Source: Salinisphaera sp. T31B1 (lineage in GTDB: Bacteria > Pseudomonadota > Gammaproteobacteria > Nevskiales > Salinisphaeraceae). Taken from it: a stretch of 64,000 nucleotides of DNA. Shown here one piece after another: positions 4,801-10,342 of this stretch. The position numbers and the translations under genes were made by a program. Positions within the stretch are counted from its first letter, which is position 1. Each line of letters starts with the position of its first letter. The DNA lies in NCBI RefSeq assembly GCF_040361275.1, contig NZ_APNH01000004.1, forward strand, positions 1 to 64,000, written 5' to 3'. The notes beneath the pieces were generated by a model. It was not told the DNA's origin. It made no database searches and was given only the letters and a program-made list of their open reading frames with translations.

Positions 4801-6528
4801 ATGGCCAAACAAACGATTGCCGATATCCTGGCCGAATTGCTCATCCAGGCTGGCGTGAAGAACGTCTGGGGTCTGCCGGGCGATTCGCTCAACGGCTTTA
4901 CCGAAGCACTGCGCAAGCGCGATGCGATCCGCTGGATCGGCGTGCGCCACGAAGAGGTGGCATCCCTGGCCGCCGCAGCCGAGGCGGACGCCCACGGCGG
5001 GCTGTCGGTCTGTGCCGGCTCCTGCGGTCCGGGTAATCTGCATCTCATCAACGGCCTGTTCGAGGCCCAGCGCGCCCACGTGCCGATGGTGGCGATTGCC
5101 GCGCAGATTCCCTCCAGTGAGATCGGGCTCGGGTATTTCCAGGAAACCCACCCGCAGAATCTGTTTGCCGAATGCAGCGACTACTGCGAGCTGGTCTCCA
5201 ACCCCGCACAGATTCCGCAGGTGCTGGAAGCGGCGATGAGCAGTGCGATCGTCAATCGCTCGGTGTCGGTGATCGTGCTGCCGGGGGATGTTGCACTGGC
5301 CGATGCGCCCGAGCATTCGCTGGCCTGGCATCCGCCGGTGCGTCCGACCATAGTGCCGCCGACCGATGCGCTCGACGTGTTGGCCGGCCATATCAACAAG
5401 GCGAAGAAGATCACCATTCTCGGCGGCTATGGCTGCGAGGGTTATCACGACGACGTGCTCGCCTTTGCCGAGCGCATCAAGGCGCCGATCGTGCACGCGC
5501 TGCGCGGCAAGCAATCGCTGGAATACGACAACCCGTTTGATGTCGGCATGACCGGGTTGATCGGATTCTCCTCCGGCTACCACGCCATGCGCGAATGCGA
5601 TCTGCTCGTCATGCTGGGCACCAACTTCCCCTATCGCGAGTTCTTCCCCGAGCACGGCAATATCGTACAGATCGATATCCGCGGCTCGCATCTGGGCCGG
5701 CGCTCGCCGCTGGCCATGGGCCTGGTGGGCGATATCGGCCCCACGCTGGCCGCGCTCATTCCCAAGCTGGAAGAAAACACCAGCACCAAGTTTCTGGATT
5801 CATGCCAGGCGCATTACAAGAAAGCCCGAGAGAATCTGGACGATCTGGCCACCCCGCGCGAGGGCGACGAACCGCTACACCCGCAATACCTCACCGCCCG
5901 CGTTTCCGCGCTGGCGCACGACGACACCGTGTTCACCGCCGATGTCGGCACGCCCACCGTCTGGGCCGCCCGCTATATCCGCATGACAAAAGAGCGCCGC
6001 CTCACCGGCAGCTTCATGCACGGCTCCATGGCCGTTGCCGTGCCGGCCGCGATGGGCTGGCAGGTCGCCTATCCGCAGCGCCAGGTTGTGGCCCTGGCCG
6101 GCGACGGCGGCGTGACCATGCTCATGGGCGATCTCATCACGCTGGCCGCGGAAAAGCTGCCGGTGAAGGTCGTCGTCTACAACAACGAAACGCTCGGCTT
6201 CGTCGCCATGGAGATGAAAGCGGCAGGCTATGTCGATGCCACCACCGATATTCCACGGGTGGATTTCGCCAAGCTCGCCGAATCGCTCGGCATTCGCGGC
6301 ATCCAGGTCACCGCGTCGGCCGATCTGGACGAAGCACTCAAGCAGGCCTTCGAACATGACGGCCCGGTGGTCGTGGACGTACGCACCGCCAAGCAGGAAC
6401 TGTCGATGCCGCCGAAGATCGAGGCCAAGCAGGCGCGCGGGTTTTCGCTATACATGCTGCGCGCGGTGATGAGCGGGCGGGGCGACGAAGTCGTCGAGCT
6501 CGGCAAGACGAACTGGTGGGGCCGCTGA
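4801..6528 (+). CDS. poxB: Pyruvate dehydrogenase (quinone), PoxB
   Basis: A 575-residue ThDP- and FAD-dependent enzyme converting pyruvate to acetate and CO2 while reducing ubiquinone at the inner face of the membrane. It matches E. coli PoxB (572 residues) along its whole length: catalytic Glu in RHEEVA (residue ~51), CAGSCGPGNLHLINGLF, GYFQETHPQ, HALRGKQSLEYDNP, the ThDP motif GDGGVTMLMGD to YNN, and the C-terminal lipid-binding tail ending ELGKTNWWGR. The ATG at 4801 gives MAKQTIADIL, which aligns with the E. coli start, although no strong ribosome binding site is seen. It stands alone and is likely stationary-phase or overflow-linked as in relatives. Confidence 0.96.
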   Translation: MAKQTIADILAELLIQAGVKNVWGLPGDSLNGFTEALRKRDAIRWIGVRHEEVASLAAAAEADAHGGLSVCAGSCGPGNLHLINGLFEAQRAHVPMVAIAAQIPSSEIGLGYFQETHPQNLFAECSDYCELVSNPAQIPQVLEAAMSSAIVNRSVSVIVLPGDVALADAPEHSLAWHPPVRPTIVPPTDALDVLAGHINKAKKITILGGYGCEGYHDDVLAFAERIKAPIVHALRGKQSLEYDNPFDVGMTGLIGFSSGYHAMRECDLLVMLGTNFPYREFFPEHGNIVQIDIRGSHLGRRSPLAMGLVGDIGPTLAALIPKLEENTSTKFLDSCQAHYKKARENLDDLATPREGDEPLHPQYLTARVSALAHDDTVFTADVGTPTVWAARYIRMTKERRLTGSFMHGSMAVAVPAAMGWQVAYPQRQVVALAGDGGVTMLMGDLITLAAEKLPVKVVVYNNETLGFVAMEMKAAGYVDATTDIPRVDFAKLAESLGIRGIQVTASADLDEALKQAFEHDGPVVVDVRTAKQELSMPPKIEAKQARGFSLYMLRAVMSGRGDEVVELGKTNWWGR

Positions 6529-6663
6529 CCACGGCGATCCGGTTCGGCTGAGCCACCGACGCGACGGCCGCGGCTCGCTCGGCCTATATCGCATGCGCAC
6601 AATGCCGTTTGCAGGCGCGGGCCGCGAACGGCGCCCACTTCACCACCGCAGGGGTAATCCGGC

Positions 6664-7269
6664 ATGGCGTTATCAGCCCTTTATCTGGCGGCGTTGGAAG
6701 GCTATGCGTATCTGCTGGGAATCATGGCGGTGGCCAACCTCATTCCGCCCCTGCCCGCCGAGGCAACGATCCCCTTCGCCGCGGCCCTGTTCGATGACCA
6801 CGGCCTGCGTGTGCCCGGCGCGATCGGGGCGGCCGCGCTCGGCCTCGTGCTCGGCACATTGCCGCTTTATTATCTGGGGCGGCTGGCCGGGGAGACGCGC
6901 GTCAAACGGTTTCTCGTCGGCCGCGGCCGCTGGCTGCTGATCGAGCCCGCCGACATCGACCGCTCCGGCCGATGGTTTCGCCGCTACGGCGGCGTCCTGG
7001 TCGTCGCGGGTCGTCTCATCCCCGGCATGCGGTCGATGATCTCTCTGCCCGCCGGTTTTCACCGCATGCCGTTCGGCCGTTTTCTTGTATTCACGGTCAT
7101 CGGCTCCACGCTATGGGCCACCGCGCTCGTGCTGGTTGGTCATTGGCTGGCGCACGCATGGCTGGGCGTCACCTCGCTCCGCGTCGGGCTTGCGTTGCTA
7201 TGCATCGCCGTCGTGCTCTACCTCGTCCGGCTCGTTCGCCTGCTTAACGCGCGGGCCGATCAAAGCTGA
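6664..7269 (+). CDS. DedA/VTT-family membrane protein
   Basis: 201 residues of a DedA (SNARE-associated/VTT) inner-membrane protein. The re-entrant region shows NLIPPLPAEATIPFAAAL, and the central hallmark is GRLIPGMRSMISLPAGFHRMP, followed by hydrophobic helices and a basic tail. Family members help flip undecaprenyl phosphate or phospholipids and keep the envelope and proton motive force intact; the exact substrate here is unknown. The start ATG has a modest AGGGG upstream. It lies 135 bases after poxB with no terminator seen between them. Confidence 0.88.
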   Translation: MALSALYLAALEGYAYLLGIMAVANLIPPLPAEATIPFAAALFDDHGLRVPGAIGAAALGLVLGTLPLYYLGRLAGETRVKRFLVGRGRWLLIEPADIDRSGRWFRRYGGVLVVAGRLIPGMRSMISLPAGFHRMPFGRFLVFTVIGSTLWATALVLVGHWLAHAWLGVTSLRVGLALLCIAVVLYLVRLVRLLNARADQS

Positions 7270-7288
7270 ACCGCGAGCGGCGTTCTGT

Positions 7289-7788
7289 GGAAGCAGGTGC
7301 TGCATGCGTGTATGGATATCCTCGGCTCGAATCACCCGACCTACGAGATCCAGACGTTTCCGCGGCGGAGTCTGCTGCGCGACGTGCCCAACCCGATGTT
7401 CTATCGGCTCGAAGCCGATATGAATGTCGAGCTAGACGACCTGTTGCACGGCTCGCTCAGCCCGCTGACATCCGACGATCAATTCGATATGAGAGCCGGC
7501 AGCGGCGGGCTCTGGACGATCGACCATTTCAATAGTGACGCGGCGCCGGAAAACTGCTTTTATGGTCATGGCAGATGCGGCGGCTCGACCGGTCGGTGGG
7601 TACTGTCCGACGCAGCGATCGGCGTGCCGGAGCCGCAATCCCAGCTATTGACCGGCTTGGCGTGCATCGCCGCCTTCGGCGTGCGGGGCACCGGGGTGCC
7701 AGATAGCCGACTGCAGCACGGCGCGCCGGGCGAGAGCGACGACGAGTGCAGTAAAACGATAAATCAGCTGAATCTTGAAGGATGCTGA
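7289..7788 (+). pseudogene. 5'-truncated copy of the PEP-CTERM protein gene
   Basis: From about 7289 the DNA and frame match the intact gene at 8693-9349 (LDILGSN, NPMFY, GLWTIDYFNSD, GRWVLSDAAIGVPEPQS), but the signal peptide and first ~75 residues are absent. The open frame can be read from a GTG at 7297, yet no export signal is present. Bases 7586-7686 match 9201-9301 with a single mismatch in 101, while the earlier part is far more diverged. After FGVR the frame leaves the homology, so the basic stop-transfer cluster is lost. It follows the DedA gene by only 20 bases and has probably no function, though it could donate sequence by gene conversion. Confidence 0.75.
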
Positions 7789-7808
7789 ACTTGTACGGGG
7801 GATAGGTG

Positions 7809-8264
7809 ATGGTGGCTGTTCGATTGATATTCATCGCGAGCCTGCTGTTCGCCTGCGGTTTCACGCCGCCGGAGGGAGGGAATATCGAGGACCGCCCCAA
7901 TGCCGCGCCGCCGACGGGCAGGGATTTGATCGTAGGCGTCTGGACTTGGACGCTTCCAAGCAATGGCTGTAACGAGGTCTATCGTTATTATGCTGACGGT
8001 AAGCTTGCAGTGATCAGTGGTGAAGAGGTGGTGCTGGGCAACTATCAGATCGCAGCTCAGCCGAATGAGTCCGGTCGCTACAAGCTCACTGACACGATTC
8101 GTGTCGACCACCCTGGCATCGACTGTGCCGGCCAGAACGTGGATCTCGCCGGTGACTCGGCTACGATCTATATCCGCTTTCACGAATCCGGCAACGCTTA
8201 CTGGCCCATGTATTCGCCGTCCGGCGATTCTGGCTTCGGGCCGCTGTTTAGAGTTGCCCACTAA
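7809..8264 (+). CDS. Hypothetical small lipoprotein or secreted protein
   Basis: 151 residues that I do not recognise. The N-terminus is hydrophobic (VRLIFIASLLFAC) and LFAC could be a lipobox with Cys at ~16. The mature part reads like a small beta-rich domain (GVWTWTLPSNGCNEVYRYYADGK, YKLTDTI) with two more Cys. The ATG at 7809 has a G-rich ribosome binding region; a GTG three bases earlier is an alternative. It sits between the truncated and intact PEP-CTERM copies, so it may have been trapped by the duplication. Confidence 0.6.
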   Translation: MVAVRLIFIASLLFACGFTPPEGGNIEDRPNAAPPTGRDLIVGVWTWTLPSNGCNEVYRYYADGKLAVISGEEVVLGNYQIAAQPNESGRYKLTDTIRVDHPGIDCAGQNVDLAGDSATIYIRFHESGNAYWPMYSPSGDSGFGPLFRVAH

Positions 8265-8692
8265 GCGGCTGTCAAACGACAGACGGCCGATCGGTGTGAG
8301 TGCCTAGTAACTAGGCAGGGCGATCACTGGCAAGCACGCTTACTGTTGGGCGGATCATTCGATCCTCGCATCCTCGGTGCCTGGACACGCCTCGGATCTT
8401 CCTTGGGCCGGACGGTGCAACGCGTTGGTGCGGACCGGTAGAAAGTCGGTGCGAATTGTTTGTCGGTGAAATTGACAGTACCTTCGCCTGAAACGGGCGA
8501 TAAAAAAGCCCGCTGGAGCGGATATCCGATTGTGTACCTGACCGGTTCCGCAGTCGCCGAACAGTTAGGCCTGTCGGGAAACCTTACACAGGGGCGGGTT
8601 GCGGCGCGTTGTCGTCACGTGTCGCACGCTGCCCGGGCAGCGGAACAAATATTGCTTCACGGACACCTTCAAAACAATAGAAGGGGGATGTC
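8265..8692. other. Leader region upstream of the PEP-CTERM gene
   Basis: 428 bases with no convincing coding sequence. It contains a perfect dyad at 8301-8317, a TTGACA hexamer at 8472-8477 without a well-spaced -10, and a small hairpin with an A-rich loop near 8495-8514. The AAGGGGG ribosome binding site of the next gene ends the region. Confidence 0.5.
8301..8317. promoter_or_regulatory. Perfect 8+8 bp dyad (operator candidate)
   Basis: TGCCTAGT-A-ACTAGGCA is a perfect inverted repeat with one central base. The near-absent loop makes it a poor RNA hairpin but a good site for a dimeric DNA-binding protein. It lies 37 bases after the lipoprotein gene and ~375 bases before the PEP-CTERM gene. 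Confidence 0.35.
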
Positions 8693-9349
8693 ATGAAGCG
8701 ATTGGTCTCAGGGGTACTGTTCTTCTTGTCCGTTACGGCGGCTCACGCCAGCGTGACTTACGAGTGGCAGGCACTCAGCGGTACGGACGACTTCACGACC
8801 ACAAGCGGAGAACTCGTCGTGACGACGGCGGCATATCGGGCCGGGGGCCTGGTTGCCAACGATACCATCGACTATTACGGGAGCCCCTATGGCGCTCGCT
8901 CGGGCGGAAGCGCCGTGCTGCATGCCCGTCTGGATATCCTTGGCTCCAATGGTTGGACTTACCGAATTCAGGCGTATCCGCGGCAAAGTCTGCTTAGCGG
9001 CGTGGGCAATCCGATGTTCTATTCGCTTCAAGCCGATATGAATATCGAGCGTGAGCAGGCCATGCTCAGTGGCTCGCTCAGTCTGTTGACGGTGGAAGAC
9101 GAATTCAGTATGAGCGCCGGTAGCGACGGCCTTTGGACGATCGACTACTTCAACAGCGATGGAGCGCCCGAGAATTGCTTTGTGGGGCGATGCGGCGGTG
9201 CGACCGGTCGGTGGGTACTGTCCGACGCAGCGATCGGCGTGCCGGAGCCGCAATCCCTGCTATTGACCGGCTTGGCGTGCATCGCCGCCTTCGGCGTGCG
9301 GCGTCGTCTCAGCGCACGCACGCCTTCAGCCGGGGTCGACGCTGCGTGA
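8693..9349 (+). CDS. PEP-CTERM-anchored exported protein
   Basis: 218 residues. A Sec signal peptide (MKRLVSGVLFFLSVTAAHA) is followed by a ~165-residue domain of unknown function and a C-terminal PEP-CTERM sorting tail: VPEP near residue 183, a hydrophobic helix and an Arg cluster (RRRLS). By family knowledge such tails are processed by an exosortase and the proteins reach the surface or biofilm matrix; no exosortase gene is in this window. The ATG follows AAGGGGG. A truncated relative lies 1.6 kb upstream. A G+C-rich hairpin follows the stop codon. Confidence 0.8.
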   Translation: MKRLVSGVLFFLSVTAAHASVTYEWQALSGTDDFTTTSGELVVTTAAYRAGGLVANDTIDYYGSPYGARSGGSAVLHARLDILGSNGWTYRIQAYPRQSLLSGVGNPMFYSLQADMNIEREQAMLSGSLSLLTVEDEFSMSAGSDGLWTIDYFNSDGAPENCFVGRCGGATGRWVLSDAAIGVPEPQSLLLTGLACIAAFGVRRRLSARTPSAGVDAA

Positions 9350-9353
9350 GGAC

Positions 9354-9380
9354 GATGGGGCGGCCGGGAGCCGCCCCGTC
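9354..9380 (+). terminator. Hairpin terminator after the PEP-CTERM gene
   Basis: GGGGCGGC pairs with GCCGCCCC across a five-base loop, extended outward by weaker pairs. It starts five bases after the stop codon. No U-tract follows, so efficiency is uncertain. Confidence 0.55.
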
Positions 9381-9604
9381 AGCAACGGACGGGGTCAGGT
9401 CCTGCCTTGGCGCACACTGGAAGACTCGGCCTGGCTCGCTGTGATCCGCTTGCCGGCGTGGCTAACTCGGGCATTGTCCCGGGTCGCGGAATTCAGCAAT
9501 TGGGGTAGCGGTACGTCGGCGCGCTGGCTCGCCGCGTGTCGGCTGTTTTTGTCGCGGCTGTCCAGGCACCTAACGTCGCGCGTGCCGCGTCTTTACCGGC
9601 CGAC

Positions 9605-10342
9605 TCAGTCGGCGGCCGGCCAGTCTCCACCGAGTGCCGTTGTCAGTTGACGGGCTTCTTCGACGAGCACGTCCGACATCCAGGCGACGGCGTCGTCGTC
9701 GAAGCAGGCGCGCGGGCCGGATAGCGACAGGGCGCCGACAAACAGCCCGTGGGCGGCGAACACCGGCGCGGCGACGGCGGCACAGGACGGGTCGCGCTCG
9801 CCGGTGGAGCGGAACAGCAGTGGTGTTTCGCTGTCCAGTGCCTGGCCAGACAACGGGTGGAAATGCTGGATGACCTTGGCCGGTGCTCCGTGCGAAAGCG
9901 GCAATAAATCGCCTGTCTTTACGTTGTCGAGAATCGAGTGGTGAGAATTCACTCGGAACAGGCACAGGCGTTGCCGGTCGTTGTAGCGCATATGAAACGA
10001 TGCGCTCTGGGTGTCGCGTTCGACCAGCCGGTGCAGGGTCGCCAGGACATGCTCCTCGAGCTGGTGGCTGGCGTCGTAGGCGCGCCCCAGCCGGAAGGCC
10101 AGCGGACCCAGCTCGTAGCGCAGGTCCGGGCGCTGAACGATCAGGGCCGCACGTTCCAGCGACACGATCAGGCGCAGGATCGTGCTCTTGTAAAAACCGG
10201 TGACGCGCGACAGCTCGGATAGCGAGGGGGACTCGCTTGCGCTTTCGACAGCGGTCAGGATCTGCAGCGCGCGATCGACGGCCGCCACGCCGCCGGACGC
10301 GCTGGATCTGGATTCGGTCGCGGCGGGGCGGGGCGTCGTCAA
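9605..10342 (-). CDS. IclR-family transcriptional regulator
   Basis: 245 residues. The N-terminal winged helix (AVDRALQILTAVESA, SLSELSRVTGFYKSTILRLIVSLERAAL) and the C-terminal effector-binding IclR domain (GPLAFRLGRAYD, AAVAAPVFAAHGLFVGALSLSGP) are clear. I chose a TTG start at 10342, five bases after the stop of the upstream dehydrogenase gene, with GAGGAAGA about 11 bases ahead. It is the last gene of the leftward aldehyde dehydrogenase operon and probably controls the whole divergent cluster in response to its substrate or an intermediate. The dyad at 12852-12869 is the most likely operator. Confidence 0.88.
   Translation of the reverse strand: MTTPRPAATESRSSASGGVAAVDRALQILTAVESASESPSLSELSRVTGFYKSTILRLIVSLERAALIVQRPDLRYELGPLAFRLGRAYDASHQLEEHVLATLHRLVERDTQSASFHMRYNDRQRLCLFRVNSHHSILDNVKTGDLLPLSHGAPAKVIQHFHPLSGQALDSETPLLFRSTGERDPSCAAVAAPVFAAHGLFVGALSLSGPRACFDDDAVAWMSDVLVEEARQLTTALGGDWPAAD

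Follow-up and report, generated by a model that had tools for sequence, protein, structure and literature searches.

A near-identical sorting tail in two diverged PEP-CTERM genes of Salinisphaera sp. T31B1 and its probable origin by recombination

Organization of the locus

The window, i.e., the whole stretch of DNA analysed here, comprises 64,000 nucleotides from Salinisphaera sp. T31B1 (contig NZ_APNH01000004.1, positions 1 to 64,000, forward strand). It contains two related PEP-CTERM loci, which are designated copy A and copy B in the following; their features are listed in Table 1. A first-pass annotation, made from the sequence alone, had described copy B as an intact PEP-CTERM gene and copy A as a 5'-truncated relative upstream of it. 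Both descriptions were borne out, the former by the open reading frame and its match to TIGR02595, the latter by the alignment of copy A with copy B, which starts at 7289 and contains no counterpart of the first ~71 codons, i.e., of the 5' third, of copy B.

Table 1. Features of the PEP-CTERM locus, with positions in the window.
Feature	Position	Strand	Remarks
Copy A, diverged body of 5'-truncated PEP-CTERM gene	7289..7585	+	Alignment to copy B
Copy A, shared tail (VPEP and membrane segment)	7586..7686	+	One base differs from copy B
Longest open reading frame over copy A, B-like frame	7297..7788	+	163 aa, GTG start
Lipoprotein-like small open reading frame between copies A and B	7806..8264	+	152 aa; unrelated to copies A and B
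TGTCGGGAAACCTTACA, resembles motif 1 as described upstream of PEP-CTERM genes (17 nt, TTTACA end)	8572..8588	+	
Sigma-54-type -24/-12 candidate, GG-N10-GC	8641..8656	+	9/12 consensus positions
Copy B, intact PEP-CTERM protein gene	8693..9349	+	218 aa, ATG start
Copy B, shared tail, then arginine cluster (RRR)	9201..9301	+	Alignment to copy A

Upstream of copy A lies a DedA-like gene (6664–7269), whose stop codon precedes copy A by 19 bases. Over positions 7264–7299, copy A and the DedA-like gene are in one and the same frame, separated by a single stop codon; this is probably due to chance. Between the copies an unrelated small lipoprotein gene had been noted, and the corresponding lipoprotein-like reading frame, whose lipobox was read by eye, is indeed present. 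No relative of it was found in the other 16 of the 17 family genomes searched, and no protein family was matched above cut-off. The G+C content by part over 7289–9200 is 57–62%; the neighbouring DedA-like and IclR-like genes have 66–67%, the window as a whole 64.5%, and both shared tails 70%. The low G+C content, together with a lipoprotein-like reading frame without relatives, suggests, without proving it, that the whole stretch 7289–9200 is accessory DNA. As to repeats or mobile elements, a genome search with 7687–8692 matched only this region itself. Sigma-70 promoters and terminators in 6400–9700 showed no excess over shuffled sequences.

Divergence of body and tail

Codon-aligned, the two copies are identical at 208 of 283 bases in the body and at 100 of 101 bases in the tail, in agreement with the diverged bodies and the single tail difference reported before. 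This difference lies at position 7643, where a leucine codon of copy B corresponds to a glutamine codon of copy A, and the exact matches on its two sides extend over 57 and 43 bases; outside the tail, the longest exact run is 14 bases. All gaps are frame-preserving. A uniform identity across the pair, which the first-pass annotation had named as speaking against its proposal, was not seen, given this contrast between body and tail.

The body divergence (dS 0.92, dN 0.213) is mostly synonymous, as between two working genes. The tail contains 0 synonymous differences across 28.5 synonymous sites, and in view of the dS of the body, conservation of the protein does not explain the likeness of the tails. 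The longest stretch containing no more than a single mismatch measures 101 bases. Shuffling of bases, repeated 20,000 times, gave at most 69, and shuffling of codons, likewise 20,000 times, at most 77, so that this length was never equalled. The binomial probability of the tail match at the identity of the body is 1.2e-12.

A repeat of ~100 bases is close to short-read length, which might point to an artefact of assembly. Such an artefact is extremely improbable, however, since copies A and B are located in one contig of a genome in 9 contigs, have different flanks on both sides, and are one tail base apart.

Among the matches listed (40 of 57 candidates were scored), the full-length tail occurred at two places of the genome, copies A and B; the 38 other listed matches were 14 to 34 bases long, with E values of 0.03 or worse. 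A gene search of the same genome found the A/B pair as the sole place with this gene; the family to which copy B belongs is called the B family in the following. A homogenisation of tails throughout the genome was considered and rejected: of the other PEP-CTERM genes of this genome, L005, L006, L007, L009 and L010 (without L004 and L011) were set against A, B and one another, and outside the A/B pair the matching pieces were no more than short or moderately similar.

State of copy A

No homology between the copies was detected upstream of 7289 or downstream of 7686, where 734 and 375, respectively, of 1000 shuffles scored as high; a body stretch, used as control, was equalled in 0 of 1000. At the 3' end of copy A, unrelated sequence begins where the arginine cluster would be expected. 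The longest reading frame over copy A contains neither a signal-peptide segment nor an arginine cluster, and its final 34 residues are unrelated to copy B. When copy A was searched for the PEP-CTERM sorting domain (TIGR02595), no family was matched at E values up to 1. The promoter motif pair of copy B (see below) is absent from the 300 bases upstream of copy A, where the best match to motif 1 amounts to 7/14 positions; a sigma-54-like match of 9/12 positions nearby sits inside the DedA-like gene and is not preceded by motif 1. Thus, the promoter and signal peptide which, if present in the upstream copy, had been named as a further argument against the proposal were not found: copy A lacks a promoter resembling that of copy B as well as the 5' third. 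Its missing 5' half was not found elsewhere in the genome.

With the motif pair, the 5' third, the arginine cluster and a match to the PEP-CTERM model all lacking, copy A looks like a recent and presumably silent remnant. Its reading frame is still open and the divergence from copy B is mostly synonymous, so that its death would have to be recent, unless the silence is only presumed.

A partial copy which lacks a promoter, adjoins an expressed copy and has a conserved 3' stretch is also known from pilE and pilS of Neisseria; one report (PMC3899283) describes, immediately upstream of pilE, a partial copy of this gene, and a shared 3' repeat of 65 nt. By analogy, copy A could be a working silent cassette which feeds variant bodies into copy B, as pilS does for pilE. 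Its lack of a promoter, 5' truncation, position upstream of the expressed copy, open frame and common conserved 3' end would all be compatible with this role. It is nevertheless highly improbable, since the one genome at hand contains a single partial copy, and no truncated extra copies were found in Salinisphaera orenii or S. halophila (see below); moreover, identity exists at the 3' end only, with no near-identical 5' stretch (compare the run of 14 bases given above), and no G4 motif was found in 6500–9700 on either strand. The A/B pair lacks most features of systems of the pilE/pilS type.

Sorting signal and promoter of copy B, and the exosortase

Copy B matched TIGR02595 with 20.1 bits (cut-off 16) and remained, with 19.6 bits, narrowly under the cut-off of 20.7 for PF07589. 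Its N-terminal candidate signal-peptide segment, as read by eye, is MKRLVSGVLFFLSVTAAHAS. In the promoter region, a spacer of 52 bases separates motif 1 from the -24/-12 candidate, which is followed after 36 bases by the start codon. Published PEP-CTERM promoters consist, according to Haft et al. 2006 (PMC1569441), of a 17-nt motif ending in TTTACA and a sigma-54-like motif 32–92 bases further on; for Aquincola, RpoN dependence of a PEP-CTERM gene was shown (PMC9850573). Besides that of copy B, no motif pair was found in the 64 kb window; when 4000 stretches of 300 bases were drawn from it at random, 6 held a pair, copy B's own necessarily among them. The score of 14/14 of copy B for motif 1 is partly circular, since the consensus was drawn after viewing copy B, L007 and L013/L014. 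Best motif 1 and best sigma-54 matches were spaced 32–92 bases apart in 8 of 13 upstream regions (copy B included; L011 was outside this sample); those of L004, L006 and L010 had spacings outside this range. Two other genes of the B family, L015 and L016, possess tails without a PEP motif (VPTAG) and upstream regions without a sigma-54 match.

The first-pass annotation had recommended looking for an exosortase gene elsewhere in the genome. One is present, as a single match to PF09721 (218.3 bits), and can be assigned to exosortase A (TIGR03109, 292.8 bits, cut-off 208). Around it, 9 of 10 scanned proteins match NCBIfam models, among them exosortase A and five models of the XrtA/PEP-CTERM system over their cut-offs, and three more just under. 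Copy B resembles the known PEP-CTERM/XrtA substrates (TIGR02595; PMC1569441) in its C-terminal tail, its sigma-54-type promoter with upstream motif, and the XrtA locus in the genome; judging from the published promoter layout and this locus, it looks functional. A fold model of copy B was too poor for use (mean pLDDT 42.8), and no convincing relative was found among solved structures (best E value 0.029).

Occurrence of related genes

Relatives of copy B were found by single-sequence search in 3 of 17 family genomes, i.e., the window's own, S. orenii MK-B5 and S. halophila YIM 95161. A profile search of 8 chosen genomes yielded one further, broken member, in the genome G016. The first half of the body is lacking in this member (L104:5260–5575), the signal-peptide part being joined to the second, and the frame contains a stop. 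Exosortases were detected in 6 of the 17 family genomes, including all three with full-length members; in G016 none was found. Among 369 genomes of the class, a match at E values up to 1e-5 occurred in one, the window's own. Among the genomes searched, the B family was found in Salinisphaera only. No relatives were found on plasmids, in viral contigs or, with copy B as query, in the genome-contig collection.

The search of related genomes, which the earlier annotation had recommended, was successful in part: it gave distant members, with 28–32% identity, and no close relative of the A/B gene pair among the genomes searched. The tails of these members are strongly different. This bears on the notion that the DNA sequence of the tail is itself under constraint, as might be supposed from the location of the sorting signal in it. 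Such a constraint is scarcely credible and was rejected because of the differing tails; besides, among the listed matches elsewhere in the genome of strain T31B1 there were only short tail pieces, despite seven other PEP-CTERM places found.

Concerning the order of genes, DedA-like relatives (63–74% identity) were present in five genomes without a B-family PEP-CTERM gene after them; this holds for the stretches fetched, two of which were short contigs.

A comparable locus in S. orenii and S. halophila

One B-family locus is orthologous in S. halophila (L013) and S. orenii (L014). In its first 64 codons, none of the 50.0 synonymous sites is changed; the following 127 codons show a dS of 1.25 and a dN of 0.226, and the last 24 codons are again without change at their 25.3 synonymous sites. 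In bins of 200 columns, the flanks are mostly 95–100% identical and the body 72–74%. The gene, at about 1560–2090 in gene orientation, has near-identical ends and flanks and a strongly different middle. The state of this body is hardly explicable without recombination, and an exchange of bodies between the sister species may be assumed from the sequences. A deep drop of identity which is confined to the body was seen in this pair alone, i.e., in 1 of 11 orthologue pairs of the two species; one further PEP-CTERM place, L125, lacked a partner and is not among the 11. The pair L015/L016, also of the B family, showed uniform identity of 97–100% with no drop in the body, and in L118/L119 and L122/L121 the drops occurred in places other than the body alone. 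In the PEP-CTERM orthologues L118/L119, a conserved part is flanked on both sides by stretches of 74–81% identity.

This locus would lend support to a recombination of tails in the B family, since the exchange appears to be of the same kind; the pair L015/L016, without such a pattern, argues against it. The locus also permits a different reading of the A/B pair, in which the tails are uniform throughout a population and the bodies vary. A second allele would have come in through recombination with the tail as anchor. Copy A would then be the body and tail which remained from either the incoming allele or the displaced one, and a conversion between A and B would not be required. Exactly such a difference exists between S. 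orenii and S. halophila at one B-family locus; copy A starts near the point at which the bodies of L013 and L014 diverge (about residue 65–72 of the protein alignment); and the right edge of the A/B homology coincides with the edge of the tail. However, the pattern is that of one pair in 11, the species of the window is represented by one genome, and the coincidence of the starting points is approximate, with gaps in the alignment there. An exchange of alleles appears rather unlikely.

Origin of the common tail

In gene conversion between bacterial paralogues, a sharp, short and near-identical tract is found within diverged copies. The A/B tract is likewise sharp and near-identical, but reaches the edge of the homology on one side. 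The earlier proposal, that of an old duplicate whose tail was recombined recently, is upheld by the dS of the body as against 0 changes in 28.5 sites of the tail; as regards plain gene conversion within complete copies, the proposal is left unsettled by the missing 3' homology (375 of 1000 shuffles, see above). That the A/B homology ends at the right edge of the tract argues against a simple conversion inside complete copies. The exchange may have been one-sided, or the end of copy A may have been deleted later; a meeting of alleles which already had the tail in common fits as well.

The reading which we consider probable is as follows. Copies A and B would be old paralogues of a Salinisphaera family of PEP-CTERM surface proteins, and the tail would have been copied recently from one locus to the other by homologous recombination, i.e., gene conversion or one-sided strand exchange. 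Copy A would have lost its promoter, its signal-peptide part and its native 3' end, and would now be a silent remnant. Copy B could be made from the sigma-54-type promoter and exported, its VPEP tail being processed by exosortase XrtA, and it may form part of a surface system linked to exopolysaccharide. Direction and donor of the transfer cannot be told from one genome. For this recombination between paralogues as for the exchange of alleles, the basis is homologous recombination within short stretches that are shared. The sharing of the tail itself is clear, and its kind, recombination between duplicate genes, is fairly ordinary.

For PEP-CTERM/XrtA substrates, rapid family expansion and a similarity of tails far stronger within than between species were described, the tails marking sets of fast-evolving proteins (PMC1569441). 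That text, in which the stem "recombin" occurs 0 times, deals with likeness of proteins, whereas the tail of A and B is common at the level of DNA, with zero synonymous change. The A/B pair thus shows at the DNA level one route to alike sorting tails in a genome, a likeness which had been reported for proteins in 2006 (same source). Among the papers searched, none pairs "PEP-CTERM" with "gene conversion". Together with the locus of S. orenii and S. halophila, the A/B pair points to a separate recombination of the bodies and the tails of exosortase substrates.

A more far-reaching idea is that the B family in Salinisphaera swaps its surface-exposed middle via the conserved ends, within and between species, with copy A as a stored cassette of body plus tail for copy B, i.e., a variation system of the cassette type, acting on an exosortase substrate, in a free-living halophile; this seems very doubtful. 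If bodies were exchanged often, the B family would be a place for studying surface variation in a free-living bacterium.

Other observations

The model of the flocculation-associated protein PepA (NF033554) gave weak matches in 4 of 7 B-family members, none of which came near the cut-off of 80 bits. With 25.9 bits (E value 7.8e-6), the best one spans residues 133–211, i.e., body and tail; copy B itself matches in the tail only. The likeness may be taken as a lead to function only.

Upstream of a B-family gene, ~447 bases in a frame which appears cupin-like by eye are present in S. orenii and absent in S. halophila (L102:8895–9341 as compared to L103 near 9341).
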